Of a stretch of 64,000 bases of DNA, positions 118 through 60,270 are shown in pieces. Position 1 is the stretch's first letter; every line of letters starts with the position of its first letter. Source of the stretch: Tubiluchus corallicola (lineage: Eukaryota > Priapulida > Priapulimorpha > Priapulimorphida > Tubiluchidae); assembly GCA_030141605.1 (NCBI GenBank), contig JAQGDQ010000003.1, positions 124,001 through 188,000 on the forward strand, given 5' to 3'. Below the pieces are notes generated by a model. The model was given only the letters and a program-made list of their open reading frames with translations. It did not search any database and had not been told where the DNA came from. The position numbers were made by a program, and so were the translations under genes.

Positions 118-3100
118 GTGCTAAACATCGAGTAGGCCATTCAGAATCATCAAGCAAAGCAGCAGAAAGGAGAAGAGGTAGTTTACTTTATTACTTATTC
201 AATAAGGAATTCACTGTGTGTTGTTTTCATAAATGAGTATTTTGTAGTATTCATTTAGTCACATGTGTCACAAATGTCTAGAGTTGCTACTGGTATTTGA
301 TTGTTTATAAAGACTTCATTCATTTGATGTGTTTGAAAAATCTAGAAGTAGAGAAGAAAGACAGCACTTCTTCACTGATGGGTGCAGACGATAACAGTTC
401 ACCATGGCTGCCTAATTATAAGGGGTTATACACAGTGTGTTTTCGACTTTCTTGGACTTTTGACAAAGAAGTGAGTAATTAATGATGTGGAGCCAGTTAT
501 AATTTGATCTGGGTATTGAGCAAAGTTAGTTTTATGCTTTTTGCCGGTAAATATATCTTTGCTCATGCAGTGGTGTTGCATCTGAAATTGCTTAGTAAGG
601 ACTTTTAGATCTGAGTAGGGTGCCTCGATCCCCAAACTCACTTTGAAGTTGCATGCAAACTGTCTAAATTGGTCATTCTGTACAGTTTGGTAAGTATTGA
701 TCTTAGTAATATTGCTTTTAATGTTAATCTCTTAGATCATTTGAATTTCAGACTGAACATTTCCTGAAATGTTCTCTCTTGACATTAATCCAGGTTTGAT
801 TCCCAAACTTGTCACATGTAATGTGGTTTTCTAAGTTCGTACACAAATCTGGTTGTTAATAATTGTAATTTCGAATCGTGAAAAGGCTGTAGGCGGTCAA
901 CATTAAAAAAGGACTAAATCACTTCACTCAATTTTTGGTCTTGGTAACATGTTTCATTTTGGTATTGTTATTGCTACATTTAAAGCTGGATTTGCCCCAA
1001 CTGATGATGTCTGAATTTACATACTCACATTAGTTGCTGAACATTTTGGCCTGTGATTTGCAAGTTTTCTGGCTAGTCTAATTCAATGAAACATTTCTGA
1101 TGACATGTTGGGATTGTTTCTGATAAGTTGCATTTTAGGTGGTCTCTGCATGCAAATTTTGTTTAAAGTGACTTGGGGGGGGGGGGCATCAGAGTGCCTC
1201 CAGGTATGAACACGCTTGGTAACTTCAGCTGCAACATTTATGCTTGAGCATGGGTGGGTCAAGCTAACTTTGTTAAAAAAATTCTAGGATTTAAATCCGA
1301 TCTAGCTCCTTGTCCATATGCTACTGATTCTAGACTCCAAAATTTAAGCAAATTTGGTTAACACATTAGTCAGGTGCTTAACTTTGCAGGCTTTCCAGTA
1401 TCCATTATCAGGTTTGTAATTTCTAGTTGTGTTAACCTACTAGTCCTACAGAATTATCAAGTGTTGTAATCTCTTACTGTTTGTTGTGTTTGCAAATTTT
1501 AGATAATGTTGTTAAGAATCAATTAATTATTTATGTTTTTAGTTAAAGCAGTTTTTGTTTGACCAGTTTTTGTTTGACCACCTCATTAATGTACAATGTG
1601 AGATTTTAGTATGTAGCCGTTCCTTCTAATCCAAAATCAACTATATTTTTTGTACTGTGTTGAAGCAGGATTGTAAAACAGCTTTGCCAGTTTGTCAAGT
1701 TGCTGTGGACACAGATATTAGCATTGTTTTAGTGCACCACTAGATGACTCACACTTCATAGTCATGCTTTGCAATTGCTATTCATATAACTTTGCTAAGT
1801 TGTTTCATTTGTCTTAATTAGTCTTTTCAATTATTACTTAAATTGCAACATTCCATCTGTAAAATATTGGTCCGGGCAAGCATTGTGTGATTTTATTGGA
1901 TATTCTGGAAAGCTAATGTCTGAGTATTCAGAATCAGAGATAGACTTCTGATAAGCAAATAGATGTAGATACACCTCCTGCGGCCCTTGTTCATTTCTGT
2001 AATTGGCTACTGCTGCTAGTCATTGTCAATTCACTAATACTAGTGTTGGAGTTAATCCCTCATTTTGCACAGATACTAATTCAAAAGTATTTGATGCAAT
2101 TAGATTTACCACTCGCATTGTGGCTTCCAGTACCGTGCATTTAAAAAGCTCTTTTTTCGTCCCATTACATTTAAGTCCTGCAGTTTCAAATTCGGCTAGC
2201 AATTTTTTGCTAACATCATCAGCTTGCTCTTGCCAAAACATAATTTCAGCAGGAGATTGCCATGGTAACATGTTCATGTTCACAGACCCTTTGAGTGTTA
2301 CTTGTGCCACTGTGCATGTGATGTTACTTTCTAGGCACAGCTGCATTATGGAGATTGACGAGCCTTTCTAAACAACATGGTCTGGCTATGAGACCTTGCT
2401 TGATATACTACATTCATTGAGTTTAAACCTGGAACATGTTGCATTAAAATCTTGACTGTTTGGCAAAATCACATGCTCTACATCGTATCTTATCCAGAAG
2501 TTTACCAGCTCATTCTCTGATGATAGTTTTCTATCTAGTTCTACGAAAAACATTGAGTCTAGACAGACAGCCAATGTTGCATCTGCTAATTTCAGTCACA
2601 AGAAGGCATCCTCTAACACAAATGAATCTGGTGTGTCAGATTTCAAAAAATTGGTTTCGTAGATTTTTAATGTCCTAATTTTACAATCGAAATCTGAATC
2701 ATTTGCAAAAAAGCTACTGTACTTTTCTGTCGGCACATACTTTCTTTTTACATTTTGAAGAAGATGTAAATTAAGAAGATTACCTTCTTTGCCATACTTG
2801 TCTAGTTGTCACTGTATCTGTAAAGTGCGTAGAAATATTTCCACATGAATGTTTCAGACAATATTGATTAAAGGTAAATCTGTTGCAGGTATGCCAACAG
2901 TAACAAAAATATGTGTAAGTTTGTCGGATACCATGGATGACATTGATTAAAGTTTTCACTGCTTCTTTTAGTTCTAAATCATTGAAGTTTAAAAGTAACA
3001 ATTTCATCCAACTGTTTAGCACCTTTACACTTCTCTGTTGCATAATGTCCAAGTGAATTATATCTGCCTTCTATGTGCGTTTCTGAGCTAACATTAGTAT

Positions 3101-6100
3101 GCTTAGTTTAGTCAATTTTACGTTTACTGGCTTCTGTTTTTCACTGTTTTTTCCTGGCTAATATTTTGAAGTCTTTTTAGTAACGGTTGGATGTTCAGAA
3201 TTTTTATTTATGAGCTTCTGACTTTATTGCAGTTTATTGTAGCGACCCAGTCTCAGGCTTTTCAGTGCAAATTCGGCACTCACTTTTAACGATGATCTGA
3301 CATTTTGCAGCATCTGACATTTGTCTTTCCTCCGAATACAAAAGGCATTCTATTAACACCGGACTGACTGAAACATAAGAGACCATTGGGATATTTATTT
3401 CTGCTTCATCTTCTTCAGCATTAAAAATACTCTCTTCTGTAGATGTCTTAGTTATTTCCTCAGTAACTGGTGCGATGGTATAAAGCTTCCGTAAATTTTC
3501 TGCAATTGAAATTGTAGCACTTAATTTGCTTTTTGTAGTAATAACAGTCGTACAATTTGCATAGAACAGTAAAACCACAAAAAGTGGTAAGACTGGCATT
3601 TTTTTAAGACAGCTCCCAATTTGAAAAAGTCAACTTTACTGGTTCGTGTTATGCTATTACGCCATGTTTAGTGAAATGAATAATGGTGCTTATATTCACT
3701 AACGACCCAAAGATCACGAAAGACATTAAGTGTTTTAAGTACCAAATGTTATTTCCTTTTCTTTCAAACATAATAAACATAGGGAGCTTTATAAGAAGCG
3801 TTATTGTTATGCATACTTTCGTGCTTACTTAATTTTTACCAAAAGTACTGAATAATAATCCTGCAGTTACACCCATAAATATTGACACTACACGTGCTTT
3901 ACTTAACATCTAACATATTAAGAAACTTTTTCAGTCTTTTACTGCATTCATGTGCACCTCTTTAGCTAATATGATTAGTGTTTTACATAAGTAGTAAATA
4001 GAGCACACATCACCTGTTACTGCGACAATCATAAAAGTTCAATAATGTTATATTTCATTATAATTGGCAGTTAACCAAATGAAATATTCAGCTTCTGCTA
4101 AGGATTCTTTAACGCAATATTGCCCGTTGTCAGGCCTAAAGTTTTTTGAAAGAGTTCGTTTTTTTAAACAGGCTTCAAACCAATAAAGGACTTATTTTTT
4201 GAACTCATATGATGGCAATAGTTCGGCTGTTTTTCCACATTTGCTTATTTTCATTCCGTGTTCGTTGATAATCTTTAATTTTTTTAACAGATAGTTCATT
4301 TTTTATTACAGGCTGTACGTAAAGAATTTTTGGCGGCCGGTGAAGTTGCTGAAGTTCATGCAGATGCAGGGTTTGTTATTAAAATTATAAATAATAATTT
4401 TATGCAGACCCATGTCCTCATGCAAAGAAAATTCTTACATGCTGGGTGACATTGCTATAGTAGATTCAAAAAATTTAACTGTCAACACACAAATAACAGT
4501 TTTTAAAAAGATTATAAAAAAAATAAGTTCAAAATTCCAAAAGTCAGTGAGTTACGTATGTACGTAAGTACGTACAACTATTAAGGACTGTCAGTTAGCA
4601 TACTGGGTTTATTTTTTTACTGCTATCACTTAAACTTAGAAAAATATAACAAGGAAATTTGCAAAAAACTTTCTGTAAAGTATAAAGTTAATGTATACTA
4701 CTGTTGAACAGAAATTTTCAGATGTGGCGGTGGTTGCCGCCTTTCACTTGAAAATTATATCGTAACTGGTGACTGTGTGACTTTTAGTCAGCACGTTGTA
4801 GATTCACGCAGAAATATCAAATTTTTTTGTAAAGTCTATATAATTTTTTTACAAAAACATACTTTTAACTCAAATTGATAGGGCACTGCTTTTCTTCAGT
4901 CAACAAATTGCATCATTGGTGAAAAAATAGGCTTTCAAAATGAGAGTGTCCAAGAGTGAAATGATCATGACTTAACTCAAGCGCCTTACGTAATTAGTTA
5001 AATCAAGTGATTTAACTAATTACGTGAGGCGCTTATCACACTTTTATTACTAAATCTTTTTAGCATTTTTCATGAATCAACCTAACTTCCCAGAAGGCTT
5101 GACTTTTTGTTAAGGTTTTTTTATTAATCTAACACTGCTTACTGTTTGGAAACATAATAGTTGTTACAATTCCCAATGGACTGTAATTAGGTCATCATTT
5201 TTTTACATTCAGAGTTTTACGTCAAGAATTTTTACATTCAGGTATAAAAACTTGCACAAAACAGTACAGCATTTGATATTTGTCTTACTATGCAGATAAT
5301 TGCCAATTTATTATAATAAAAGGTATTATTTATAGTAAATCTTAATGTCAAGATTATTAGCTAACTCGGAAATGTACCCACAATTATTTTTTATTTCTTA
5401 TTGCTTTATAGAATTGCTTTTCTATTTTTACAGCATGGTATTTGTAAGATACAAGACTTTGGAAGAAGCCAGCAAAGCGTTTGAACTGTTCGGACGAAAA
5501 TACGATCTGCGAAAGGGACACATAAAGAAGTCTAGTGCAAACGTGTCATTGCTAAATAAGAATGGTTATTGTTTAAAAGGTTTGTAGTTACTTGTGCATT
5601 GCACTGGCTCAACCATATGGAAGCCATAATTTCTTCAAAAGATATATTACGAATTCCTATTTTTTATAGTCTGGTTCTTGAAAATGCTTGAATGTTTGGA
5701 CCTGGTTGGAAACGTTTTCCACGTGCAGGTTAGATCTTTTCTTGTTTCTTGTTAAAGACCATATTATAACTTATATCTTCAAATATCACCAGTTTGCCAG
5801 CAATGTCAAGAAATCTAACAAGTATCAGATTACATCTGGCTTATCATGTTTAATTGTGTAAACATTGTCAGACTTAACTACATATCTATGAGGCCTGTAA
5901 TGATGCATGAGTGCGTCGTGATATCTTTTGTTACAAAACGCGTATCGCTAAAGTGCACCTGTATCGTGATAATTGGAGTCATTAAAATTTAGTACAAGCT
6001 TGACCATCCAAAAAACAGGACATAATTAAAGCTGTGGCATTCAACTGTAGAATGTAGAGACATGACAATCAATGCAGTGAGTGCTGTATTAGCAGACTTA

Positions 6101-9100
6101 ACATAGGCAGACCAGCTGTTAACAACCAAAGTGGCTGAAAGCACAGTTTGTGTTTATAATAATCTATACAGACTCATTATAGTTTTGCTTATAATCTTGT
6201 GAAACAAACTTGAACTACAAAATTTTCTTTTGTAGAGCTTTTAAATTAAACATATTGAGATGTTTTGCTTGTCTGTTGATTTATGGTACAAACAATACAC
6301 TGGTAATAAAAAAAATTCAAGCAGCGTATCGAGTTATTTTAGCATTTAGCAATTCTAAAAATTCGCTATTGTTTGATTCATAAATATATTTAGCATCTAT
6401 TTTCAACAGCTTCGTCTAGTTCTTTTTTATAAAGCCTAAAAACGTTGACTTAGTGCATTGTATTATATCACAATGTTAGTATTGTGATATGTATCGTATC
6501 TTGATATAGGTATATCATTACAGCCCTAATGTCTAGGATACTGATTTTAATTACAGTTCTAAATAAAAAAGAAATTTTGGTGCATTTGTACACATATCCT
6601 GGTAGATAAATTATATCAAATATATATGGAATTAGCATTTAATAAACCCTGTTTGTGCTTTATTTCAAAAGAATATACTATCACTAGTATTTTTGAGAAT
6701 GGGCTTGTACTCCTTCTGTACCAAATATTCATCATTTGAGTTCCTACATTAATCCCTTTCACTTTTACGTTTACGTATTTTCTATTAATACAGTAAAGCA
6801 AAAGGTATGATGGAGTTTGTTTGTTTATACTTTGGCCACTGTTTTAGCACGTTGGGATACCTGCAAGAGAACTATTAACAAGCAAACAATAATATAATAC
6901 TTTTATGTTTAATTCTGTTACCATTGTCAGTGAAACAGTTCCTAACAAAGTTTCCATTTTCAACAACTTGAGAAATTATGTTTACATTCAAAAAGTTGTG
7001 TTTCACTTGAGAAGTATGGAATGCTTCCAACAGTTCCTACTACAATTTCAGTCTTACCTGTTACTTCTTTCACAGTACTTTGTTACAGAACTCCGGACCA
7101 ACAATGCTGCTACTTCGCCAAGATCTGATGCCCTTACTTCACCGAAATCTAGAGCTGAATATGATACAAGATGGCTGCCAAACTCATACACAGGGCTGTA
7201 CACCGTTTGTTTTCTTATACCAGACAACTTTGACAAGGAGGTTAGTTGTGGACATCTTGGACATCTGATTGCACATAATTATTATAATATTAACTTTTTG
7301 TCAAGCATGTAAGTGAAGTAGTTAGTCACAATGATTATTTGTTTGATCCCCAGTCACACTTTTGTGAAATTCTACTGAAAACAGACAAAGAAAACATTTA
7401 TTTACCATCGCTCGTTTAATAGACAACATTAGCAGCTATTTAGTGACTCACATTTACAACAGTACAGGTAAGGACGTAACACACAACTGGCGAATAACAT
7501 GTACAGTATATGTTCTGGCATTGGCAGCGGCTAGTCTCAAACTCAAGACCGTAATTTAGACCACTTGGCCATCCAACCCAGGAAAAATGACTTAACCACT
7601 TATATTGTACAAAGGTGTAAACGCATATATACAAATTTTAAATGAAGTTGTTGCGAATTTTGGTGATCGCGGACACTGCATGAAATGGTGACCACTAATA
7701 ATTACAACAAATGTTGCAATCATTATAAACATTACTGTGTAACAAGAGTAACATACCGAGTAGTTACCAATAAAAGACTGCACTAATACAAAAATGAAAG
7801 TATTCACAGAATTATCTAATTTGAGGTGGGGTTCCCATGCAGGAACAGACGTACAAGTTCATTTTTTGCAAGTCTGTAAATATTTATGTTAAAAACTGGC
7901 AAAGAATGCAGAAATTTGTAACTAAATCATGTCTAGCTTGGTAGTAAAGTTGGCAGCTAATTGAGTAATGATCAACTGTTTTATCAGCAGAATCACATTG
8001 ATAACTAGGTGATACCAGCGACTCATTGTAATTTTCTGAGGTATAAATTGTAATTAAATTGACAAAAGCTTGCTCTCATTCCAAGTACTGTATGCATGAA
8101 TTGTTAGTCCACATCAGCTTTTTAGTGAAAACTGGGTATTAAAAGTTAATGTTAAGAAATTTTTACAGACGCCATGAAACACGTGTTATTCTTTCTTATT
8201 TCTTCCATTACAGGCTGTGCAGAAAGAGTTCTCAGCTGCTGGTGAAGTAGCTGAAGTTCATGCTACTGACAGGTGTGTTGGTAATATTGTTTTTATAAGT
8301 GATGCTCTTTTCTTTTGTGTTTCAGAGGCACTTAAATGCTGAAATTGCTCTGACTCCCCAAAATGTATATACTTTATTTTACTGTATTAGACTGTGCATG
8401 TCAGAGCTTTCCATTTTATAGTGTGAATAGTGTTTCACTAAAAACGAAATAACGTAGCTAAAATGATTTTTTGTGATCCAAAAACACTGTTTCCATTATG
8501 CCAACTAAGCATGTATTAGGTATTTTTCTTAAACTATTACAATAACATTTTAATGCTTTTAGTGACTGATTCAATATACCCAACATTTCATTTGCTGTAA
8601 TAATTTATTAGTTATTTTACTAACAGAGATGGTCCTTCTGCGTGCCTGCCTTTCTTTTAGAAAATGGGCTAAAACGTTCAAGGTCAATCGTACGAGCTGA
8701 TAGTAAATGGAGAAATTATTGTGTACGAGAACTTGTGCAAGGAAGGTATAACAAATTCATTTCCAGCACACAATAATTATTCAGCTAATTGAACAATACT
8801 ACATTCTAGTAGATTACCAGATGGTTTAGTGTAAGTGTAATATGTGACATGCTTGCTTTCTGTCTCGGAGGTTGTGAGCCCGATACCGCATCTGTGTCAT
8901 ACCAAAGATTCTAAAAATGGTACCTGCTGTTACTCTGCCTGATGCATAGTATTTCTGGTAAAAACAAGGTAATAATAATTCTGTTATGCAGAAACATAAT
9001 ATTTTTTGCTCGTTGAAAATGCTGATCTTTTAATACGAAATAAAATTATCTGTATTTAAAAAACATTAAACTTAGAGCAGCTACTCTACAGTTAAAAATA

Positions 9101-12100
9101 AAATGAAAGTCTGTATTTAAAGCAGAATCAGCACAATAATCTTTATCTAATGTTGGTTTTAAATTCATCAGACAACACAACTCATGAAGCTGTAAATAAC
9201 AAGCTACACCTACATAACAGAGATTGTATTTACTCTGCTTTTGTCAGAAATACCATGCGCCAGACAGGATAACAGCATGTATTGTTTTTAGAGTTTTTGG
9301 TATGACACGGCCATGGTATCGAACTCATGGGCTCCCAGACAGAAAGCTGGCACATCAGATATTGCACTGTACCACTGGTAAACTACAAGAATGTAGTATT
9401 GTTTAAATAGCTAAATAATTATTGTGTGGTGGAAATGATTATTGTTATATCTTCCTTGCGCAACTTCTAATACACAATAATTTCACCGTTTACTATCAGT
9501 TTGTGTGATTGGAGTGTGCAATGTTAAGCACAAAATTAAATACAATTATCCATATTTGGCAAATAACATAACTTTTTCAAAATAGAATTTTGTTGCCAAC
9601 CAACCAGTTCAGAACCATTACCATTCAATTTCAGGGCATCTAGAAAGCAAAGAAATTTTGCCAGAATGTAGACACAACTCAGAAGCAAAAGTTCAATAGA
9701 TAGTAATCAGTAGGTGCTGAATTTTTACTTTTAAGTTGCTTCTGCAGTCTGGAAAAATTTCTTTGCTTTCTAAAATACCCCGAAAATGAACAATAATAGT
9801 TCAAAACCAGTCGGCAATAAAATTCTATTTTGAATAAAATTAAATCACTCAAGACTAATTCATGTTTTTTTTTGTTGTTGTCATTTATAAATATTTTTTG
9901 TTTTACAGACGAGTGTTTGTCAGATTCAAAACAATTGAAGAAGGCGACAAAGCATTTGAACTGTTTGGACACAAATATAATTTGCAACAGGGACTTGAAA
10001 AACCATTAAAAAGCACTGGTACTCAGAATATTTATTTGCTATATTATGTGACTGTTTATCATTGACTCAGTGACATTCTGCTATTTGAACTCAAACTACA
10101 TGCAATTGATTTCAATCTTTGGTGTTGATGGTGGAAGAAATAACAACGATTGTGGTGGTTGAGGTTGTGGTGGCAATGACAGTAGTAGTGACGATCATAC
10201 ATTATATACATTATATAGACAAGTGACAAGCAGTATTTACATTCGGTTAAAAGTGTTACTAACATAAGAGAAGGTAAAAAATATCTACCAATAATGTGCT
10301 TTTTTTGTTTCGGACCTAATATAGACCGCTTTTGTAGTTTACGTTCCTGTGTATAGCCTCGGAAGCTTCACATAACTAGGATCTGGATTAATTTCGTAAT
10401 GTAAACAGAATATGTACCCAAACCGCATCCTTTCTACAGTCTGCTGGTACAGAAACCTAGAGTGATTACTAGCCATCGACTACAAAACATAATGTCACTA
10501 GCTCTGTAACCAAATAATAAGTTTTTATTGAAGTAATGCAGCATTATTTATCTTTTGACCATACAGTCAGGAACACAAGCTTTGTAGCATATGTTAACTG
10601 ATAACTTTAATATGCAAGAATATTGCATGTGACATGGTTGTAGCTTGCACAAGCTGCTATTTGATTTGCATTTTCAGATGTCAGGACAAGGCAAAGTAAC
10701 CACCAAAGGCATGCAGGAGTTCCGAATTCACCAAAGGAATTACACGGCGAAAATGTTGTGATAGTGTCAAATTTTGATAGCAACTTGGGTCTGGTAAGTT
10801 TCCTATTAAAATAGTTTGATCACTTAATTTTTCCTTTAATCTTAATGTTAATTTATATGATTTAATAATTGTAGATTTTGCAGTTAAATGAATAACTATT
10901 TGGCATCTTGCTATCTTCTAGTTTATTAGATCTGCAGTATTAATTAGGGATGTGAGAAATCTCAACCAGAAACAAAGCTTCAAAACCAAATCTGAATTTG
11001 AGTTTTCATTCGATTTGATTAGCTTAAATTCTATGTTACTTTAGATCTGACTCAATTCGACAGATTTTTTTAAAAAAAATCTGTAGTATTTTATTACAAA
11101 GGCAATTATAAATTCTTGTATCTTTACAATTTTCAACAAAATTACTTAAATTGTTGCCTTTTTTATAGTTTTGCCCTACTAGAAACAAGCAAATGCCACC
11201 GTATTCAGTTTCAACATGTGTACAACTCACGAAATTCTACGCGCAAGCTCGTATAACATTACGATTTTAACTGCTAGTGTCATCAAAAATACTAAGATTT
11301 CTTGTATTGCTTTAGCAGAACTAAATCATGGTTTTTATTATTGCAGAATTACTGTTGCTCACTGCTCCTACATGGCAATCTGTAATATTTTTTTGTGAAA
11401 ATCGCAGCAGCCTTATCACTCTGCCATAATTTTATTAAAAAGCTACGTAGATTTGAATAAGATTTAGTTTAAAAAGTAGTTAAAAATCAACATTCGAATT
11501 TGATTCGGTTTCGAAAATGATTTTAATTTGAGATTCAGATTTGATCCAAATTCGAAAATTATTTTAAACTGAGATTCAGAATTGATCCGGATTTGAAAAT
11601 CATCATAAAATAACATTTGATTTAGATTTGGTAATTTTAAATTTGTGTAATCCCTAATACTAATACTGTTGGAATTAGTTATGGAGTTGCTAGACATTTG
11701 ACAATGTTTAAAGTTCTAATATTGTATTTCAAAATTTATACTAATTATTGCAGCTGCTCCATCAGTTACTTATTTTTTAATCCCAGTGCATAGAAACAAT
11801 ACGGCTTGAAATAATGGTATATTGTCTGATTAACCCTAATTATATCGTATGATGTTCTGTATCTCAACTTTGATACATTTGTTGTGCAGGAGTTTTTCAA
11901 GGGACTTTTTTACAAGTATAAAGTGGAAAACATTCAAATTAGCAGAAGGTAAGGAAAATACAGCAGATTAATCACAGGTGTGGTAAAGTCACTGCTAAGC
12001 TGCTAAACGATGATGCCGTCAAAATGAATTAGATTATGACCGTGAATGTCAGAATGGCAAGTGCTAATTGCCAGCTAATTTGTAAAAAATTGATACCAGA

Positions 12101-15100
12101 TGTCAAAATTACTTGCATTGTTAATCACCAGATTATCACTGTTTGTAGAAGTAATGATGTGCAGTGCACCTGTTTACTTTTCAAAAATTTGATTCATGCG
12201 ACTTTTGTCCCTGCTAATATTTTATTACTTTGCATAAATAGACGATATGTACAAAAATATAATTTTTCCCAAAGCATGATACGTTTAACAGAATAGGCAA
12301 AAAGAAATGAAAAATGAATTTATTAATTTTTTTTCCTTAATATTGACACCATTCACTTAAATATTACATTGACAGATAGTGCAATCTTCATTCAATTCAA
12401 GCAGCTTTTTGCAAGCTTTCTAACACGAAAGTTTTTTCCTAGGAAATGCTACCTGCAGCTTTTGTCTAGAGAAGAAGCTGAAAAAGCTGTGAGCGAATTT
12501 AATGGTTTTCATCGTGATGGCCACTCACTTTTGGTAGCTCTTGATACCTCAAATAGGACAGGTACAGTTAAATCAGTCCATTAAATGTGATATTAGTATT
12601 GTTCAATTTTCTGTTATGTTTCAATGTTTCAATGTAAAACGTGCACTGGTTTAAAATAAATTAACAATTTTGAGTACTTATTTTTTGTTGTATACTTTAT
12701 GATAGTATTTGAAATCTATACATTCTTCATTTGCACTTTTGTTTATTAGAGATGATTAGCGAAAGAGATGTTTATGACGAACTGCCAACTTTACTTGATT
12801 TATGTGAATCTGATGAAGAAGATGCGACAGAAAATATTCGACAATTTCATTTAGAAGATGATGATCACCAGATCAACTTCAGCGTCGCAAGCCAAGAAAG
12901 GCGCCTTTTAAAAGTTTCTAATATTCCTGCCAAATATCGTGAGGTACAATGGTTGCTTTAATTTGTACTACCATTACTTTCTACTTGCAGTAAAATGAAG
13001 TGTACTTAAAAATGATCATTTTTTGTCTTTTTCAAGTACCACTGCTTGTTTCTGGCATTTCCAACTTTTTCTTACAAGTGTTCAAACCCATAAATATTGC
13101 GACCCAATCTAAATTCAGAACCATTTTCCTAAGTGTAGCATAGCTGCCACTGTCATATATTTGAATAGAGGAGCATGAACAAATCTGGAAGAAGTTGATT
13201 AATTTTGTTCATTAATTTTACTTGTTAATTTTCTCTAAATGTAGCTAGTTTCGTTAGTTTACTTGCACTTTACGTCTTTATTTTTCAGCTTGACATGCTG
13301 GAGATTTTTGACAGATATAATCCAGTGGATGTCCTGATGGTTACAGATAATGGATTAAAGTACGTTTTGACTTTTCATGTTACATTTGTCTGCTATTTTA
13401 AGTGCAGTAAGTCCTTGCTATGAGTTTTATTCATATTTCTATTGATTAGTTTCTTTCTGTTTGCTTTAAACCACCTTTCCTATCAATACATGTGCCTAGC
13501 TGGCTGTTTCTCTTCGTTAACGTTGAAGCTTATGCAGTTGTTAAATATAATAAGCACTGCATAATCAATGCCAAGCCCTGGGACGAGCTTGAGACAATTT
13601 CATGTAGGTTGCAGGCAGAATTCCTTCTTATATAGTTTACACCCAGGTCCCTATAAATTGGAGTGTATAAATAAGTCTCGCTTGATGCAAATGGCTAACA
13701 TTTAGTAGCTAGTCGGGAAGCAAAAACATATGTAATAATTGTACTGTTTTACGCATTAGTGCGTGCTTAGAACGGAATAATGCAATATGTGCTATTTTAG
13801 TGCTTCAAAGTAAGCAAAAATGTCGTTGCTTAAATAAAAACTGGCTTTGAGCAAAGTAATAAAATTGTCGTTAAAATGAAACATGCATTGTTAAGTGAAA
13901 AAATGTGTCAACGTGCTGCGTCATTAAAACTAAACATCGCTAAACGGGAAGTCATTAAGCGAGGACTTAGACTTACTGTAGTAGCAATCATTTAAGGGAC
14001 TAATTAGGGGAGGGGGAGAAAGTAGCCTATTATAATTGGTAGTTTGTTATAACCAGGGAACGTATTCCCTCTCCCTGTATACAGCATGCCAACTTGGAAT
14101 AACACTCTTTCCGTGTATAAATTTGGAATAATTGCTGTATACTTTTCTGATTATAATCCTGAATCTGTTTCAAGAGGATCATTTTGATACCAAGTTCAGT
14201 GTTCTACGTTATTTCTTTCTAACCTGAGATAATCCATGTTCAAGACGAGGTGCAGGCTGCACACTGAAAAACATAATCTTGAGAAAATCACTGTTAAAGT
14301 TTCCACTGTTTTTTGTCGCACCTATGCAAAAACACTTAGCAAACGTACGAATGGGTGGTTGCTTTGGACTTTGCAAGAGCACATTAAAATTACTGCTTCT
14401 ATAAAGTACTATTGCAGTTTGAAAATACGAGTTTTTGACAAATGCAATACTAGTTTTTAGGCAGGAAAATGGGTAAGGAGTTATTAAGTAAAATTTTTAG
14501 CATTTTTAAACAATTTCCCGGTGTTTTTATGTCAGATAATAAAAGCCTAATATGTTTTTGTTTGTTTTTGTAAAAAAAGATATTTGACTCAATTTTTGAT
14601 GCATTCTACTTTGAAGCATCATAACGCAATTTTAACTATGCCGACTTGCGGACGGTTTTGGTTTGCAAGCACACATACCTAAAATCTGTGATAACAAGAG
14701 TTAACTATAAGTTATAGAAAGGTTTGCCGCTTTTGGGTAGCACATTCTTCATTTCCACCAATTTTCAAAACTTTCTCATTAGGTTTTTATTTTTTTAGTA
14801 TTTATTTTATTATTAAAATACACATAAAACTTATTATATTTTTGTCAACATTAGCACAAGTGTTTTATTCAAGGAAAACTTTTTAGCATGCAAGTATGTC
14901 TTTAGTAGTGCTCTATCAGCTTAAAAACTCGTGTTCCTGACCGCACTCGATTCTAAAAAAAATTGTTCACATTTTATACTGCAGTGCAGGCACATCAAGT
15001 TCTAAGTTGGTTATTTTGTTACTTGATGGTGCAAGCCAGTACTTTAATTAGTTTTTTTGTTTTTTTTTAGTCATAGTTGCTACATTTGCTGTCAAACACA

Positions 15101-18100
15101 GAAGCTAGCAAATCTTGCCATGCGAGAGATGAACTATTCGGCGCTAAGTATGTCTTACCTGATTAATCGAATTAAGTGATTTATAAACAATTTTAGCAAA
15201 TTTAGCTCTTAAATTATCTTGTTAGACTACCTTAGATATTTTAAAGGGAAGTACAAGTCACATAGCATGTTGGTCCATTGGGTTTATTTTACTGTTATTG
15301 TATAATCTTATAAAAATATGACAAAGAAATTTGCAAAAAACTGTATGTAAAGCAGAAAGTTAATTTATACTACCACTGTATAAAAATTTTCAGGCGCGGT
15401 GGTAGCCGCCATTCATTTGAAAATTATGACGCCACTTTCTGGACTTTGTGACTTTTTGTAAGCACGCTGCCTAAACTAATTCAATCTGTAGCTCACCTAA
15501 TATTTTGGCAAAAATATCACAAAATTAACTATTTATCTTCTTTAAAAACTTGACAGTGCTCTGTTTTTGCTCAGCAAATTATAAACTACATCATTGGTGA
15601 AAGAATGGGCATTCAAAATGGGAGCACCCTAGCAAGGTGTTTATCACATTATTTTATTACTAAATCCTTTTTGAGAGCATTGTAATAAGCCTAACTTCCC
15701 AAAAGGTTTGATCTTTCTTTACAATTTGTTTGCGACCATTGATGGTATTACACTGGAAAACTGCAAAATGGTCTATGGTTTAGATAAAAAATACAAAATC
15801 TCCTGCTTTCAAGGAAAAAGCTGGAAAATCATTTTCAAAGCTACTAAAATGATCACGTGGCATATTGGTTATTAATGTTCTTATTGATAACAGTGTAAAG
15901 TTGAAAATGGTTTTGCTAGGTATGCTACTCTGACACACTGTGAGTCAGTAAAAATTTAATTGCCTTTTTTGCTGCCACATCCATTTATGCCAACTATTAG
16001 TATAGTATTTATCAGCATATTTTGAAGTACCACTGGTATATACCACTATTGACCAGTTCACTGTTTACTTTGTGTTGACAATCCTAAAGCATCTGCTTGA
16101 CACTTTATTAGAGATATATACTGAATTTTTTCTCAAAATTTGCTTAACTCCATGTACCGCTGAACTTTCAGCTACCTTGAAAGTAAAATTCATTTCACCT
16201 GAGGTTTCATTGTTTGAACTGTAATAGCATTAGTGTTGTGGCACTTTTACTCCAGACAAAATGCTAATGGAATCACATATATCAAAGATCCTGCCAATAA
16301 CAGTTATACTAGCAGAGCACTTTCGTTAAGCACAAGGTGGTGAACAACTATGTGATCTATGCTGCCTGCTGGAAATAAAACAATGATTCACCATTCTAAT
16401 ATGTTCTTCAAATCTCTAGCACTCTTAATAAAGTACAGATAAATGTAATGTATAGCGTGAGGACAATTGTATGCCTTGTAACAGTTCATGTAAAGTTCAA
16501 AAATACATGTTTGATGTGTATTGGCCTTGAAATTTTGCACCCTGCTAGTTTACTAGCAAGGAAGATTTTATAAAAAGACTAGATTACAGCCTCTTTGAGC
16601 AAGAGCAACTTTTTAGGTAAATAATGCTGACGGGTAAAGTGCATTCATCTGTTAAACTGTAGACACTATAGAATTTAAGCTTATAATTGGTACAAGCTCT
16701 GGCACAATCATGCAGGCTCTATTAGTTTTACACCTCAACTTGAACTAAGACTTTTGGAGTTAGAGTTTTGCATTTAATTTTCGATAAAATGACCTTGATG
16801 CATCGGCAAGTTAGTAGCGTTTTACCAAAATGGACAAATTCACTAATGTTTTGTGGCAAAGCTACCTATGGAGTAGCAGCGACGAGTTCAAAACTCAATG
16901 TACATGAACATAAACACGTGAAAGATTTTGCTGACATGCCTGGCTACAAAGGATTAGCTGGCTATTTAGATTTTTGCAAAAAAATTGCGAATGCAAAAAC
17001 ATTCTATGAGCAATTCATGCTGGATTTCGAAAAATTCAAAACGCACACTTTGAGGACAAAGTTTGTATTACGTGACATGGTCATCACTTTCAGCGTCGAG
17101 GAAGCAGCCAAGATATACAGATCTTCTGGGAAGTATCCTTCTCGTATTCCATTTGATCACATATTAGCATACTTGGAGGAGTCAAATGAATCTAAAGGTA
17201 TTCTTACATATGAAGGCACAGATTGGCACCGCATGCGGAATGCGGTAAACAAGCGCATGATGCGGCCACAACTAGTTATTGAAAACGAGGAAAGAATAAA
17301 TGATGTAATAACAGACATGATTGGGCGTATTAGATATATGCGTGACAAGCATGGCGGCTACATACCGGGGATGACCAATGAAGCATACAAATGGTCGATG
17401 GAGTCTATCGCTAGCATCTTATTTGAAGAAAGACTGGGATGCCTAAAGGAACCTGTACCAGCTGAATCGCAAAATTTTATCGATGCTGTTGGTGCTGTTT
17501 TTGAAAATGGTCCTTATGTTATTGGCCTAGCAAAATTACAACAGAAATTAAGAACACCACCTTGGAAGAAGTTCTCAGCAGGGTTCGATTACTTGTATGA
17601 CTTCACGCGTAAGACAATCAACAAAAAATTGCAAAAACTTGATTCTTCACCAGAGAATGAGAAAGATTCCTCACTTATGAGTTTTATTTTGTCTAGTGAG
17701 CAATTATCACGAAAAGAAGCATTTTCACTGATTTCAGAGCTTTTCTTTGCTGGTGTCGACACGACTTCCAACACACTGTGTTTTGCTTTGCACCTTTTGG
17801 CCCAGAATCCTAATGTCCAAGCACAATTACTCCATGAAGTTCTGTCCATTGGAAGGAACAAAATTCCATCTGCACACAATGTCCATAATATGTCATTTCT
17901 GAAAGCTGTATTCAGAGAAACTCTGCGTTTATATCCAATTGCATCAATTATGGCACGGGTGACAGAAAAAGATTTGGTTCTTGATGGTTACCACATTCCA
18001 AAAAATACGCTGTGTGGACTAGACTTGTACACAATGGGACGCAGTAAAGAGCTTTTTCGAGATCCTGAAAAGTTTGATCCCTCTCGCTGGCAACGGAGCA

Positions 18101-21100
18101 TCAATGCAGATCATGCACCTTCACCATTTGCCTCAACTCCTTTTGGCTTTGGGGTGCGCAGTTGTATTGGCAGGAGATTGGCTGAATTGGAAATGTATTT
18201 GATGATGGCAAGAATTATGCAGCAGTTTGAGCTAAAACCCCATGGTTCTGGGCAGTTAAATGTCATACAGCGTGGACTACTGACTCCCGGTCCAGAAATT
18301 CCAATACAATTTATAGACAGAAAGTGATAATTGAAGCTGCTATTATGAACCAGAAACATGTGCTAATTGTGGATAGCGAGCATATTTCCCAAAATTTGTA
18401 CAACTAGTTATTAGCAATTAGTGTGTTAGGTATTATTAACAGTTCTTTAATTTTTTTATTACTTTAGGTAATACTAACTTTCACAGGTGCTTGCACCTTG
18501 ATGTTTAACTGTAATTTACTGGTTGGTATTGTTTCCTAAACTTTTACTTCCGCAACAGTGTTATCCTGGTTACTAACTTTTGAAGCTGGAGACTGGTCTC
18601 CATTCATTTTTTTAGGATAAATTCATTTTTTAGGAAGCCTTAAATTATCACACTTTTAAGTTAACTTAGTGTTGTTTTATTATAATTTTATTATTATGAG
18701 GAAATAATATAAATATAAATAAAATATTGTGAGGAAAAGGAAACATGTTTAGATATTTTCCTTAAGTTATTTGCTTTCTTTGTACAGCCTGGCACCCTCA
18801 TTCCAGGATAGAGCATTCGTTATAAATGAAGTTAAACTATAGATTGGTTTCATATTGTTAGGCCTGGAAAACACTCCAGTTGCTTTGAAATTTTCTTATT
18901 AAGTGAATGTGTAAAAGTTGTTTGATTTTTGGTGTACGGTTATTAGAATGTTGAACCCAGAAGACTCCATAAATAGAAATAATCTAGTTTGTAAAAAAAG
19001 CAAGAACAAGAAAAAACTGTTTAAGCTAAACTCTTGGTGACTTTATGTTAACACCGATAAACAAAATTGATATCTGTGGAGCCATCAGTTTTTCTACATT
19101 CGCAGTGTCCAGTGCACAATAGCGGTAATGACACACACGGTTGTGATAAACGGTTGCAGCAATACACACGCCCTTCCTGATGTCTGGCAAACATGACTTC
19201 AGACAATTATCATAGACACCTTCAGGATGATAAGCAAGTGCTGCCACTAAATGCTTGACACTGTATTGTAGTGTGACTGCAATGTAAACATGAGATTATA
19301 CATTTATTTGTGCATTACGCTTCATTCTCTGTCCTTATTACATCATACTACTGACACCCATCCAACTCCAGTTAGACTAACTGTCACGTAGTTTTTTAAG
19401 AATATTACAGGGAGTACCCTTCAGGGACGTATAACACATTTCGACTCACTTGGAGGGGGAGGGTGTCAGTGGGTCAGAGCCTTCACAACATAAGTTTCGT
19501 TTCTTTTTGACAGATCGCTTAAACTTGGTTGTAGAAACAGTGCATCCTCAATCACCTCACAGACATCTCATGCAGGATTTTTCCTTGCAGTCACCCCAAA
19601 CACGGCTTGCTTCCTCCTCATCGACCTCTGGCGTGCACATTGCTCTGGAGGATATACTGCCATCTGGATGTTAGTTTTATTTTTTTCATTATTAATTTCA
19701 ATTGTAATAACCTTTATTTAAAGTAAGGCATAACTTTACTTTTTAGCTGTTAGCATAAACCTCTGAAGCTGTTATAATTGTCTACTGCAGTTAGTGTACT
19801 ATACTTGCATAACACTGATAATATTTATACTACTTTTACTCTCAATGCACACACCAGGCAGGCACAAGCATGAACTATTTTCAGCCTGCTCGTTTCAGAT
19901 TAAAACCTGCTGCTTAATCAATTAGATCTGTTTCTGGCACTCTGGTTAGTCTGTCTTAACTGACATGGCAAGCAAAGTACATTTATATTATATGCATGTG
20001 ACATCTTCGCCATCTATTGATAAAAAGTGTCATGTATTATAAAAGAATGCTTGCTTTCTTTACAATAAGCAGAATATAAGCTTTTATCCTGGCAATCCTG
20101 TAAGTGAAAAAATAGCTGCCTTGCAAAGAATGTAAATCTGTAAACATTTTACAAGGAAGTTGGTAAAGGTTCGTGTATTTTTTATATGAAAACAATAGAC
20201 TTTCTTAGTTTAATTACTTGATTTTTGCAAAATATGCTTTTTTGGACCAACTGTTGTTCCTCTGTAATAAACATGGCTGAAGGTAAAAAAAAATTCTGAA
20301 AAAACATTAACTTTAACAATTCTGAAAAAAAACATTAACTTTAGCATAGTAGCTTTACCCAAATCAAGTACAATAATTCACTTACAATTTTTTGAAAACT
20401 TCTTCAAGGAAAAACAGTTTGACATTTAATCTGGTCATCACATTATCACAAAGGTCTTGGTAACCTTTAGTCACACACTTTTTTACTATTTTACTATTTA
20501 AAATTTTTGCTATTTTCACTAGAACAATAATTGGTGATGTAAAGTTTACTCCATATAAATTTATTTTTCTGTTGCAGCTAAGCCGAAAGATGAGCACTTA
20601 CTTGAAACTAGTGAAGATAAACTGCCCGTATCAATGACAAGAATGGTATGTAAAATGTAACTTCGGTGGTTTGGTGAGAAATAATATGTGTGATTGATTC
20701 ATTCAACTTTATCTAATACATTGGAAATTGTGCAGTAGCGGCCCACACTCCCAGTATTAGCAAAGTGTAGCATTATCTTCAGAAACACTGCCAAAAATAG
20801 TCTGCTATACAATAAAACAAATATAAAAACAACATCATTTACGTGCTTCAGTGTTCTACTTGTTAATACCTAGCACTCCTGCCAGTTGCAACTGCCCACG
20901 TTGCACAGTTGCTCAAATTTGGAATTGTATTTGTATTTGTTAAATACTTTTGCACTATATCTATATAAGACTGCAGTCGAACAACTTTGGCTTTTTTGTT
21001 GGTTCAAGAGCTTTACGTAGTACTACATAAAAAGGAAATTCCTGCCAGTAACATCAATGGTTGTCCTTCCCAATGCAGTTTTTATATTTGGATTTGTTTA

Positions 21101-24100
21101 CTCTAACGGTTTTCTTTACTACATCACACAGATCATAAATTTATCATTTGAAATTTTTCTGGTCATTTGATACCTAATAACTTCTGTATAAATATTTTTG
21201 AAAATCATCTTTCTTTTTGTTGTTTAATTTTTATTGTCCATTATTCAGCATTGCATAAAAGTGCAGGTTCAACTGAAGTAGATGGAATTCTAACCTTGGG
21301 CTCTTCGGAAAACCTTTGTGAGATCTAAGCAGAGAAGGTGGAACTTTCCTCTATTGTACATTAGCTTCGGAGCTTCAGTGTCTAACACTTTGCCAAGATA
21401 TTTTCCCAAATTATCATCTCCATACTAAATCTGATGTTGGTTTTTCTGGTCGTATAATTGACATTGAGATTACATTTTTCTAGATGTCTCCTAATTATTA
21501 GCTTAACATCGTAAATTGTTTCTACCTTATTTGCTATGGAAGGGATATCAGGTATCCTTGTACATAGCAGACTTATCATGTTTTAGCCATTTCATCAGTA
21601 TCACCTCATCATTTCTTAATATTTATTTATAATTTTTCGTTTTTTCCTCCTTTTGTACTTACATTACTTACACCCTTATTTTGCTATCATGTTATCCATT
21701 TTCATTGCACATCTCTTACACCTAATGCAATTCTCCATTCTGCAGTACAATTGAGCTTTCCATGTCCTAACTTTTAACTCAGCTGCAAGCAGTTGCATAT
21801 TAATTGCTCACTTAATGAATATTGTTGGTAATTTTGTTTTCGTTTTGCCTACTATTGTGCAATTGTATATAATATAATTGTAATTGTGTGTTTGTCTAAT
21901 AAACAATCCATAAAGTTCCAGTTCTATTTTGTTTAAAACACTGGTGATGGTGGTGCCGTGTTTCATGTTTTATGAACTTTGCATTGAGTTCATTTTGTTG
22001 AAGATTTTTTTTTTGTTTTAGTGACTTTACTGTTGCTTATATGTTATAACTCGGATGCATTTTGCAAAGCTGTGGGTTCAGTATGTATTAATGCTTGTTA
22101 ATAGGATTAATAACAAAGATATTTTATGCTGAAAAGTTGACTGTTAAGCATGAGACAATATGCCTGTCATCCACAGCATATCAAAGCATTACGATGCTTG
22201 AGCTGATAGTTCAGTCTTGCCCATCTCTTGTTTAGATTTGTATTGTTTATATTTGAAACATAATTACTTGTGGTGTGTTAGTAGTAATGGCAAGCATAAT
22301 CAACTACTTGTAATCAGTTACTTGCTCACAAGTCTCTGGTGTCGATTAGTTTGTTAAGTGATTGAATACTAAATGATTGCTTTCTTATTAATGAATTCAT
22401 AATAATTTGAACTGCAAAGGATGCAAACTGCAAAAACATTCTGAAAAACAAAACCCCTATAGCTCCACCTTCAGGGATTTCAGTAAAGCTTTAGCATACA
22501 CTGGGAGCTACTCCGCTTTGAAACAGATGCTGACGAATGATCTTAAGAATCAACCACTAACTAAAATTAATCAGCGATTAATTGAAATTTGCAGTATCAC
22601 GCATCGCTAATTAGTAGCACTATTCAAATACCTAGTTTAAATGTTACCACAAATAGAAAAGTCTACTGGTAGCTAACTGGTTATTACTAATTACATGTAT
22701 TTACATAGCTTTTATATATTAGCTGATTGTGCAGCTGCTTGTGATATAATAATCATTACATAAATAGTTAATAATAATTAACTATTTATGTAATAATTGC
22801 ACTTATGTGTCAAATGGCTCATATAAAAGCAGGCGCAGTACTTAACTACTTGTGGAGTGTTATAAAATATGCACTTTGTATGAATATCAAAAGACGCAGA
22901 TTTTCCGAAAAGAATTTTATAACACTGGACTCCTAAATTCTGGCCCTGTGTAGCTGGGATCCCGTAAAGCCAATTTTTCATGCACAAGTGTATCTAATAT
23001 AAACTTCAAGTCATGAGCTAGCCTCTATTCTGTGCCAAGGCTTTTGTAATCATGGACAATCTTTCCATCACATCTTTGTTTTATTATATTTCTTACTTGA
23101 AAGTAATGAAGAACAAGAGATGAGAGAAGTATTGAATAAGTATTATGTTACATAAATCATTAGAAATTGTTAGACAGCTTGTGTACAAGTAACAGTTGTA
23201 GTAAACAACCTATGCTGCAGCTCACTAACACTTTTACTTTTTGCAGGTTTATAATACTATGTTTTATAATTGTTGTGGGCATCGACCAAGGCAAATGATA
23301 TCTTTGCCTCCAGAGTTTCGACTGATGGTGACTAATGTCGCAGACGGCGTTCACTTCTGGGGGCACATAAAGCACAGTGTAAGCTATTTTAATGTAGCTA
23401 AAAGTTTAAATACTTTTTTCGAACTAATTCTTTTGTATACTTTATTGCACATCATTATGTTTTAGTTTAACTCCTATTGTGTGGTGTGGTTTTATAAATT
23501 CAGCAATAGAGCTGCAGTTGACTTTAGAATACCTGTAGTTACCCTAACTTAGTGGGCAACTATAGAATTATTGGTTTTGTGTGTCTGTTTGTTTGTCTCT
23601 CCACCTGCCTGCCTGTCTGTTGCTCCCACTTTTTGGGATATTCTTGGATCAATAGGTGCAGATTTAAATTTTTCCAATTTTTTAAAGATTTGCATGTAAC
23701 AATTATAGCATGTTATAATATAGCTGCTACTAATAATGTGGCAGAGCAGTAAACACCAGTACCTGCCAAATGAACCATGGTTCATTAGTCGTTGTTGGGC
23801 AACAACAATCAGGAACTCATTTTAATTTAACCACATGACATGACTGTGGCTATGTTATTTCACAGACATTTGATATAATTAATATTTTAAGTGAACATTA
23901 CAATCCGTGTCAATGCAGAAAATACATTTTTGTGGTTGTCTTCATGTAGATTTGGATAATTATGCCCTTCTGCTGAGTGCTCTCTAGTTTATTTAATAAT
24001 TTTATTTACTTTACACACAAACAAAGTACTATTGTTTGCTTATTTAATAATTAGTTAAATAAATTCATATAAATTATCATTGACAGTAAATACTTGAGAT

Positions 24101-27100
24101 CTGTTCAGCCATACTTACTATCTACAGTTCTGCATAAGTGTAATTATGTAAATGAAATTAAAAGCAAGTAAATACACTCATAAAAATTATTGCTAGGATT
24201 GTATTTATTTTAGCTGCATGGGTCACAATTTTTTTGCTACCTTTTATCAAGGTTTTAAAATTAAACATGGAAAACTATATGTTTCAATTAAATTTTTAAA
24301 CTTCCTTTCTGTTCACAATGGCACCCATCTAAAATTAGATTACACTGAAGTGCACGCTACAGATCAGGGTAAATCAATTATCTGTTCTAAGTTACTGAGT
24401 TTAAACATTTGAATGTAATATGATTATGACTAACAGTTGAATTGCGCGTTCATGCAAAATCGTCTGGGCGATGCTAGTTCCTGTTTCCATTATCTGAACA
24501 GATCGTCAAGCATGATTGATATTAATGAATAGATGCTTTAGAAAAAACCTACTTCCTGGTTGCAAACCATCTTATTTTTTATTGGTAGTTTTGTTAGCAA
24601 AATCTCAACTTAATTTGACGTAGTTTCTGTGAACTGCATATCTCTACTCTTATGAAGTTCTTTGTGAAGCCTTGATAATAATTTAGCCAGAAGTGACAAG
24701 AAGTTTCTGCTGATAATGCTAATATGAATTCATTGCATTCTTGTATACATTTCAGTCTACAATTAATGAGCTAAAAAAGCTGGCTGAATTGAGATCAGCA
24801 CTTGACCAACTTCAGCAGTTTGAGTTTTCAAAGAGCATGATATTTTGTGCGGCTCCATATGAAGGTGAACTCTACAGGTAAATTGTTAGCTGAAATTGCC
24901 AGTAGCTTCAAATCTGTTATTGTGTCTATGTTACATTTATTGGGCTTAAAACAGCTTAGTCTTTACTTCATTTGTTTCTAACATGCTAAGATATCAAGTT
25001 ATTTTTTCCAGCAGAAAACATTGTTTAAATATTCATGGTTGAAGTTAGGACGGAATATTTGTTTCACATGATTTTTTGTTGGCTGTTTTCACGTTGAAAT
25101 AAACTTTATTTTTTGAAAGTAAAGAACAGTTTTCGGAACTTTTCTGAAATGTTATTTTATTTTACACTCTCATGAATTGTCATGTTTAGTCCTCCACTTG
25201 AACTGCATGAGAGCATCACATTTAATCAGCATTTTATAACTGGAGGGTGCTTGTTGTATAAAAATATAAAGTTTTTCTGGTAAAAAATAATAATTATTTG
25301 ATATGCATAACTATATAGCTTGATCTACTGACTTAATTTTTTTATTTTAAAAACATTAAATTTTATATCCTGCATTGTTTGATTTTTATAGTATTATTCA
25401 ATTTCTGTATCGTCTGATGATTGCAGGGGGTACACATTGAATCTGCTGCCTGGAGATAAAATGAGGGTGTTCTATATAGACTATGGGAACACCATTGACA
25501 TCAATAGAACGTTACTTACACGAATTCCAAAATATCATATGGTGTGCCTGCGACCTCAAGCTGTACCATTCAGGTTGGCATGTAAGTGGTCTTATTTACT
25601 CGTTTCCTACTAAAATACAATAAACAGGAAATCTAGGATTCTTTGAAGGTTTTTCTTTAATGTATTCGTAACAAGTTGTGCAAAATGAAAAGTGTCAAAA
25701 ACTACATAGGTTGTTGTACATTGCTCTGTTCTTTAATGATTTTACGTAGTATTGTTCAGTGTTATCTTTGTAATACAATGCATTTATATTTTTGCTAAAT
25801 GAAATGCCTAACTGCCTAACAAACGTGGTTCCCAATGCCAAAGTGTATCTGTTTGCACAAGTTAACACAAGATAAGAGCTTGAACAAAATTAAATTTGGC
25901 TTGATATCAAAATAAACATTCATTTTTTTACTGTATTGTAATTATAATTGAGAAAAATTGTGGAAAGTGTCCTTGCCTTTAACTTGTCTTAATAAATAAA
26001 TGAATTAAACTCCTGATATTTTCTTAAATGACTAAATGATGATAATAATAGTGAAAATCTAAGGTAATTGGAAAAATTAACGGATATCATCTGTTACGAT
26101 TACTCACCATTACGGGTATGACAGACAGAGTTATAAACTTAAAGGGTAAGAAAAAGCAATTTTAAATTGTGTCCTAAAAAGTTTCACACAAAGTTATGTT
26201 ACTTAGCATTATGCTCACCTGCTTGAAAGACTTAGGTAATGACAAAAAAATCCTAGCGTGTTAAAATGTTCACGCCAACTAGCAAAATGTTACTGACTTG
26301 TCTTCCCAGTGTAAACCACTGACTTACCAAAAACGTATTTTTTAATCTTATTGACAAGATACAATAATTTACAGTTTTGCTTAGTTAGTGAAACGTGTGC
26401 TACGAATGCTCTAATTATTTTTTCAAACAATTTTATGTAATGTTCTCTAAACTTGTTTCAAATGATCTACAGTTAACATAGCTCTACAGCTTTGTTAACA
26501 TAACAAATGATCTACAGTTTTCGCCATCCCGTCCTTATTTCTCTTTTGTAGACTATTATAATAATTTGAAGGCAAATAACTTATTCTGATTCTGATTCTG
26601 ATTCTGGTAAAACCACTAAATTGTGTTACTGTTATTTGCTTCCTTTTATGATTTAGTTTGTGGCTACAAAAATCTCTGACGAAATTCAGAATACACAAAA
26701 ATAATTCTTTTTTACAATTGCAGCTATAAAATGAATACAACATATGGCACATACGAATATAGTTACGGATTTATATTATGATGCAGGCTAATAAGAAAGT
26801 AAAGTGGTATACATTGAATTAATCTATAGAAGTGGCATAACCATTTTTTAAATAGTTGGCTTTTAGCGTCTTATCTGCTTTTTAATGTAATGAGACCTGC
26901 TTTCAGATAAAAAATTTATTTTATTGTTACTGTTGTTGTTACAGTTGTTAATGTGGAGAAAAATGGTGGTGCAACAAAACTGCAAGATTTGCTCTTGATG
27001 AAAGAAGTTGGAGCTAAACTAGCACTGACTTCAGTTAATGAACGTGTATGTATAACTTATAGCTTTGTAATTGTTTCTGACTTGATTGATTGATAAATTC

Positions 27101-44980: not shown

Positions 44981-46305
44981 CTCTACAATAATGCTAAGGT
45001 CACAGGAATGAAGGCTTCATTTTCATAAAATAACTAATTAGGTTTTTGAAACTACTTACTTACTTACATAATTGTTTATCAATTCACTCATGCACTTACT
45101 TAGTCCAATAGTTACTTTTGGTCTCACAGCAATAATAGTGCTTTGTTGTTTTTATCTATGCTGGACTTAGTTAATTGATTAGAAAATCAGATTTTTTAAA
45201 TGCAAAAATTTTTAATTTAATTGAAAATGGTTTCAATGAATTTAATTAAATCTAGGTCTACAACAAAAATTCCCATTATGTTCCATCGGTGTTATGCTTT
45301 TTGACTTGTGAATCTGTATCAGCTGAAGCATTTGCATTCAACCTTGTTTTTGTAAACCAGTTTTCCAAAACCAAATGCCAGATGTCTGGTTTGCTACGTG
45401 TAATTGTTTGTTAGCCCTTCAATGCTGTAAATAGGGATATTGACTTTTTATACTGGCTCTCAAATTTTGTGCAAATAAATAATAATTATTACATCAGTTT
45501 TAATTACTTTAGAAGGGGCAGTTTACAATCAGTTATTAGTTAAGAATATATTCATGTTTGCCTGTAGTGTGAATTCCTCATGTTGGGAGGTATCAAGGAA
45601 ATGTTCTTAACTAGTGTAGAAAACATTGCGCTAATTTGTTTTTCGTCATCTCATAATCACTGCTAACTGGCCATTAAACATTATGCGTTAACTGCTCATA
45701 GGGAATTATAAGCTTAGATTCTCAGTACTAGAATCATAATTTTAAGGATCCGCTCTGAACCTGACTTAGGAAGATGCTAAATGCAAAGTTAATAGGAAAA
45801 CAACAGAGAGCACAGCAGAATACAACAATCCAGGGCATTATAAACATGACCATTTCTTCCAAAACAGATAAGTACACATTCTTAAGTACATAATTTTTAG
45901 GACAAACAAATGTAATATACAAGGCTCAGTGTATGTTTCATTGCTATTTGCTGAACTGTGTGTATTTCTGTAACACGGTTTTATGACGTTTTTGTATTCT
46001 TTCAGTATGTACAGTAGAATAATTTCACTTCAGAACTTCTTGGAGTCTTGTTATATGAATTTTCAAAAACAAATGCAACTTACAGAAACCATTTTAATGT
46101 AGCAGTTCTTGACACCCCAAAATTTTGCCCCATGCAGGGTCACCACCATTTTACATAATATTATACAATTTTTCTTCACAGGCCTTATACCTTCATTGAT
46201 GGTCTGGTTTTGTGATTGCTATGCTGGGGGTCATAAATGCTATTGCCAAAAAACTAGCATTGAAAATGCATCATGGCAACACTGGCAAACTGATTGACGA
46301 TCATT

Positions 46306-49300: not shown

Positions 49301-49739
49301 CTTTGCAGGATTCCTTTGAAGGTGTAGATGGTTACTTGTACATAGCTATGGGTTACTGTGAAGGTGGAGATCTGTATACTAAACTCAAACAACAGAAAGG
49401 AATGCTTTTAGAAGAGAGACAAGTGGTTGAGTGGTTTGTCCAGATTGCAATGGCTCTTCAGGTGAATTGTATAAATGTGTTACTGGATTTTCATTGTCAT
49501 TCGCTGGCCACGTTTGATTCGTTCAGTTAATGCATATATAGCATGGCCGGTACTTCTACTTTCCCGATTAGTTGTATTTTCTTATAATTACATGCTTCCT
49601 TCTTGCAGTACCAATTTTGGGAACACATTATAAATAGCAACATGTGAGATTGTCATGGTATTCTGAGTCAAACTCAGGTGCTTCAGCGTAAGTTTCAAGC
49701 AAGACAGATCAGTACCTGCAAATTTAATTTCACTCTGTC

Positions 49740-49796
<57 letters not shown>

Positions 49797-60166: not shown

Positions 60167-60270
60167 CACTCGGAGTCGGTGCACTGAAAGATTAAAAGCT
60201 CGCTATCTAACATGGTTGCTTGTTCGTAAATTAAGATGATGTTATAAAATTAGGCAGTTTGAATGTCTAA

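Follow-up and report, generated by a model that had tools for sequence, protein, structure and literature searches.

Does a single gene encode an array of RRM modules ahead of a Tudor domain, and do these modules stem from the repeated duplication of one exon cassette? The question is raised by a stretch of 64,000 nucleotides of the priapulid Tubiluchus corallicola (GenBank assembly GCA_030141605.1, contig JAQGDQ010000003.1, positions 124,001 to 188,000 of the forward strand), hereafter the window, whose GC content is 33% and whose gene content is eukaryotic and animal-like. A predicted gene of 20 exons and 19 introns can be drawn on its + strand at 118-29438, to which all exon coordinates below refer. 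Judged by its content, we consider it reasonably probable that this is a real animal gene for a protein with four or more RRM-type modules and, after them, a single extended Tudor domain, with cassettes derived from one unit and a product that would act as a germline-type scaffold.

The model reads through 717 open codons up to a stop codon, and all its introns are of the GT-AG type, an agreement that is partly by construction since the exon borders were placed by hand on the window sequence. Its donors fit the consensus at a mean of 4.7 out of 7 positions against 2.3 for all GT dinucleotides of the window, and its acceptors are preceded by 69% pyrimidines against 50% for all AG dinucleotides, the weakest being that of exon 346-470 (41%). 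The GC content is 41.1% in exons and 32.6% in introns. At intron composition, 717 open codons would arise by chance with a probability of about 3e-24, a value that is only a guide because the exons were picked for being open. The leftmost exon (118-177), which has AG/GT borders and an open frame, is entered and left in phase 1 and carries no start codon, and none is present in the model within the window; as the gene runs off the left edge and starts beyond it, the four RRM modules are a minimum count.

Each module spans three exons with AG/GT borders and the phase succession 1-0-2-1, as proposed in the initial annotation, and the lengths given there for the middle exons, 59 bp in modules 1, 2 and 3 and 71 bp in module 4, are likewise those of the model, as are the coordinates given for the first three. 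Module 1 is encoded by 346-470 (beta1), 4312-4370 (alpha1-beta2) and 5434-5579 (beta3-alpha2 and a tail), module 2 by 7089-7240, 8214-8272 and 9909-10018, and module 3 by 10678-10793, 11890-11948 and 12443-12561. Module 4 follows an acidic linker encoded by the same exon as its beginning (12750-12943) and continues in 13289-13359 and in a third exon of 77 bp (15071-15147) that covers beta3-alpha2 without a clear beta4. Alternative phase-compatible open AG/GT pairs lie within 40 bp of the middle exons (1, 2, 5 and 1 for modules 1 to 4), and the choice of 59 bp in modules 1 and 2 is backed by the protein alignment.

We take the four modules as RRMs on the strength of profile comparisons. On the joined protein, the Pfam RRM_1 profile (PF00076) matches three stretches with an E-value of 8.2e-13 and 48.5 bits for a cut-off of 20.7. 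Furthermore, a profile of the four modules matches 139 PDB sequences at E <=1, with poly(A)-binding protein and CELF1 at the top, and the best 60 of the 139 are by name RNA-binding, splicing, paraspeckle, nucleolar or ribosomal proteins, which we take to be RRM proteins. A search of NCBIfam with the 442-residue RRM half matched nothing. What speaks against this assignment is that the modules taken singly reach 19.0, 12.2, 18.3 and 17.7 bits, all under the RRM_1 cut-off, while modules 1 and 2 taken together reach 26.8 bits; the profile match is one of the array as a whole. Canonical RNA-binding RRMs carry aromatic residues at position 2 of RNP2 and at positions 3 and 5 of RNP1. In modules 1 to 4, the corresponding residues are V, V, I and K at RNP2-2, as read by hand from the Pfam match starts with an uncertain beta1 register in modules 1 and 2 (LYTVCF), and M, R, K and S at RNP1-3 and F, F, Y and Y at RNP1-5, as read by hand from the beta3 strings. 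By eye, each module thus has an aromatic residue at one of the three positions and none has the full canonical set.

The comparison of modules 1 and 2 firmly indicates an old tandem duplicate under purifying selection. The two are 59% identical over 88 columns (BLASTP E 8e-35), and over 70 codons the first position differs in 12, the second in 14 and the third in 35. With the NG86 method as the sole estimator, and after dropping one residue unique to module 2, dN is 0.19 and dS 2.47 (saturated), which gives a dN/dS of about 0.08. Between cassettes 1 and 2, blastn returns 18 stretches at E <=10, of which two fall below 1e-10: one corresponds to the middle exon, and the other to the third exon plus about 45 bp of the preceding intron. 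The others have E-values of 0.07 or more. As the introns no longer align apart from these 45 bp or so, the duplication is old. Module 3 weakly resembles module 2 with a BLASTP E-value of 0.002-0.003 within the set of four sequences, and modules 1-2 in hhalign with an E-value of 0.002 but a probability of 14%, and it likely derives from serial duplication as well. Beyond the 12 module exons, tblastn at E <=1 finds no extra copy in the window save two weak hits at E 0.22 and 0.33, although such a search could miss very short decayed exons.

These comparisons bear on several alternatives. That the RRM array is decaying or non-functional, as the low score of each module alone might suggest, is very improbable in our eyes given that the frame is open throughout the model and that modules 1 and 2 differ chiefly at third codon positions. 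Module 4 is a more serious matter, because neither BLASTP nor hhalign reveals any sequence kinship between it and modules 1 to 3, which weighs against a common cassette: it reaches 12.3 bits at most with a sibling in BLASTP, and hhalign of modules 1-2 against it gives a probability of 0.1% and an E-value of 0.8. Its nearest solved relative is instead the Fox-1-type RRM of ASD-1 (phmmer, 27.5 bits, E 3.2e-5), the comparison of the two bit scores being rough as the programs differ. ASD-1 and the other members of the Fox-1 family are single-RRM splicing factors and are not known to have a Tudor domain. Together with the 71 bp of its middle exon in place of 59, these scores leave some room, though rather little, for a mixed origin in which modules 1 to 3 are cassette duplicates and module 4 is an unrelated Fox-1-like RRM, with introns alike by chance or through an old trait shared among many RRM genes.

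The introns point the other way. Across modules 1 to 4, the first intra-module intron falls after RRM_1 profile position 13, 13, 12 and 12, and the second after position 41, 41, 40 and 39, so that each of the two stays within two codons of its counterparts across the four modules, with identical phases. These places were read ungapped from the Pfam match ends, which presumes no gap before the intron; they were preferred to a MAFFT alignment of the four modules, in which a gap in alpha1 shifts the first intron of module 3 by three columns. Under a uniform model of our own, an unrelated RRM with two introns would agree with module 1 in the places and phases of both introns with a probability of about 7e-4 per module, and literature searches for the background of intron positions in RRM genes found nothing relevant. 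That the positions and phases are shared supports a single cassette plan, and we infer a common descent of the four cassettes from a three-exon RRM unit flanked by phase-1 introns; for module 4, whose sequence shows no kinship to the other three, this descent is read from the introns only. Of the serial duplication of one cassette proposed at the outset, the step linking modules 1 and 2 is clear, while module 3 has weak sequence backing and module 4 has none.

Downstream of two linker exons (exon 13, 19514-19669, and exon 14, 20578-20645), the Tudor part is encoded by exons 15 (23247-23378), 16 (24756-24877), 17 (25427-25581) and 18 (26945-27045), and the last exon (29364-29438) carries the stop codon. 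Pfam TUDOR (PF00567) matches one stretch of the joined protein with an E-value of 1.3e-12 and 51.6 bits (cut-off 23). The C-terminal part also matches the Tudor part of SND1 (E 2e-7), in an alignment that keeps the FYIDYGN core, within the VFYIDYGN of exon 17, and two more aromatic residues, at positions that we take to be those of the Tudor aromatic cage. Both the profile match and the YxDYGN-like core expected of an extended Tudor domain are therefore present. Comparison of the 126-residue Tudor part with viral contigs gave 40 pattern matches, none of which was confirmed as a relative.

Do the RRM and Tudor halves belong together? Exon 12 (15071-15147) ends in a phase-1 donor (GTATGT) that can be paired with the phase-1 acceptor of exon 13, and because the phases agree and single proteins with RRM and Tudor domains are a known architecture, the two halves are probably one predicted gene. 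The intron to be spliced out spans 4366 bp, and it contains an intact cytochrome P450 gene on the same strand, which counts against the join. One can also picture the model as two genes: the RRM half would end after module 4, the Tudor half would start at exon 13 or 14, and the P450 gene would stand in between. A complete P450 open reading frame (16789-18327) followed by AATAAA at 18718, further AATAAA motifs at 16374 and 16427 and one at 17295 within the P450 frame, as well as a read-through from exon 12 that stops after 10 codons, would all suit such a layout. We had hoped that exon 13 would prove the join by supplying the beta4 of module 4, and this role, possible but unproven, is unsupported by the scores. 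Indeed, module 4 reaches 18.1 bits with RRM_1 as a core, 18.0 with the read-through and 18.3 with exon 13; against ASD-1 the figures are 24.6, 24.9 and 26.1, with six control tails at 24.8-26.2, and 77 of 300 shuffled tails equal the real exon-13 tail. While this test gives the join no advantage, the matching phases at exons 12 and 13 and the precedents for the combined architecture make two separate genes unlikely in our judgment. Two genes and a mixed origin of the modules are compatible with each other, and both could hold.

As for the P450 gene inside intron 12, it is intact and intronless, encodes 512 residues and matches Pfam p450 with an E-value of 5e-88, its best PDB matches being the mitochondrial types vitamin D 24-hydroxylase and CYP11A1. 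Its AATAAA lies 391 bp past the stop. This nested gene may be an old retrocopy; the intron that bears it contains no run of A or T of 9 or more.

Returning to the reading of one RRM-Tudor gene, how does it compare with known proteins? Human TDRD10 has one RRM, whereas at least four are predicted here. In vertebrates, TDRD10 resembles the present gene in combining RRM and one Tudor domain, and it is tabulated, with no RRM count, as a single-Tudor protein with RRM whose function is unknown (PMC12147562). The predicted gene would have the same order, RRMs then one Tudor, provided that its two halves join; both domains lie in one phase-consistent model. TOFU-6 of the C. elegans PETISCO/PICS complex likewise has RRM and Tudor (PMC6601512), and its RRM binds that of PID-3/PICS-1 in piRNA making (PMC8458385); it differs by its single RRM and by an eIF4E-binding motif, a motif that was not sought in the present gene. 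Vreteno, with an RRM, a MYND finger and two or three Tudor domains (PMC10711660), and Aedes Veneno, with one RRM and extended Tudor domains (PMC6411831), are both adaptors of the piRNA ping-pong cycle, while Drosophila Veneno has no RRM. Vreteno and Aedes Veneno share with the predicted gene the RRM and extended Tudor combination and differ by one RRM, the MYND finger and several Tudor domains, against at least four RRMs and one Tudor here; in the 717 residues within the window, one TUDOR and no MYND were found at E <=1.

In the excerpts of the RRM-Tudor literature examined, no Tudor protein with four RRMs is named. The statement of the initial annotation that known RRM-Tudor proteins have far fewer RRMs agrees with these accounts, where Vreteno, Aedes Veneno and TOFU-6 are single-RRM proteins and TDRD10 is listed with RRM. 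The RRM count is unusual because the RRM-Tudor proteins described there have a single RRM; the combination of the two domains is already known, and it is the number of RRMs that may be new. Seen from its sequence, the predicted gene resembles an enlarged form of an RNA-handling protein that is already known.

How might such a protein have been built, and how might it work? The phase-1 flanks of the three-exon RRM unit would let copies be added in frame, so that cassettes could be gained or skipped without frame loss. By analogy, the product may serve as a scaffold of germline type: its Tudor domain, to judge from the core residues, would bind dimethylarginine-marked partners such as PIWI proteins, and its RRM array, with its degenerate aromatics and with TOFU-6 as a precedent for RRM-RRM contact (PMC8458385), may offer several contacts to RNA or to other RRM proteins. 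As the canonical aromatics are mostly missing, protein-protein or weak multivalent RNA contacts are favoured over strong sequence-specific binding. Several published results stand against parts of this scheme. A two-hybrid test found no interactor of the TOFU-6 Tudor domain (PMC6601512), and Aedes Veneno needs its RRM neither for granules nor for contact with Ago3 (PMC6411831). A preference for protein contact is further at odds with the RRM surfaces of TOFU-6 and PICS-1, which carry positive charge and are believed to bind RNA (PMC8458385), and with the RRM of BmVreteno-L, which crosslinks RNA (PMC10711660). The results on TOFU-6, Veneno and BmVreteno-L, as given in these excerpts, cut both ways on the Tudor partners and on the RRM contacts. 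A bolder proposal, which we regard as speculative and rather improbable, is that of a Tudor family not described before, whose symmetric phase-1 RRM cassette has been multiplied into a multivalent RNA/RRM platform and linked to PIWI proteins through a single Tudor domain; further modules would lie upstream of the window, and in-frame skipping of cassettes would yield isoforms.

Elsewhere in the window, a multi-exon gene lies on the - strand at about 33160-40690, with limits set by eye; three of its exons, once joined, match Glyco_transf_90 (E 4e-44), and it probably encodes a protein O-glucosyltransferase, presumably what is named POGLUT. A fragment of retrotransposon reverse transcriptase/RNase H follows at 41053-41841 on the - strand (RT_RNaseH_2, E 5e-30). 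At about 46300-60170 on the + strand, three joined exons of a multi-exon protein kinase gene match Pkinase (E 8e-40); its limits and its NEK-like character were judged by eye. Eleven 33-bp tandem repeats (48297-48662, 95% matches) stand between two exons of this kinase gene and are open in the three frames of the - strand and in one frame of the + strand.

In insects and worms, RRM-Tudor proteins, described with one RRM each, take part in piRNA production (PMC10711660, PMC6411831, PMC8458385, PMC6601512). An array of at least four RRMs, if true, would lend itself naturally to testing how RNA capture or RRM-RRM assembly depends on the number of RRMs, and the exon plan shows a way in which domains can be added in frame. 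Furthermore, since the function of TDRD10 is listed as unknown (PMC12147562), an expanded relative such as the predicted gene of T. corallicola could help to place it.

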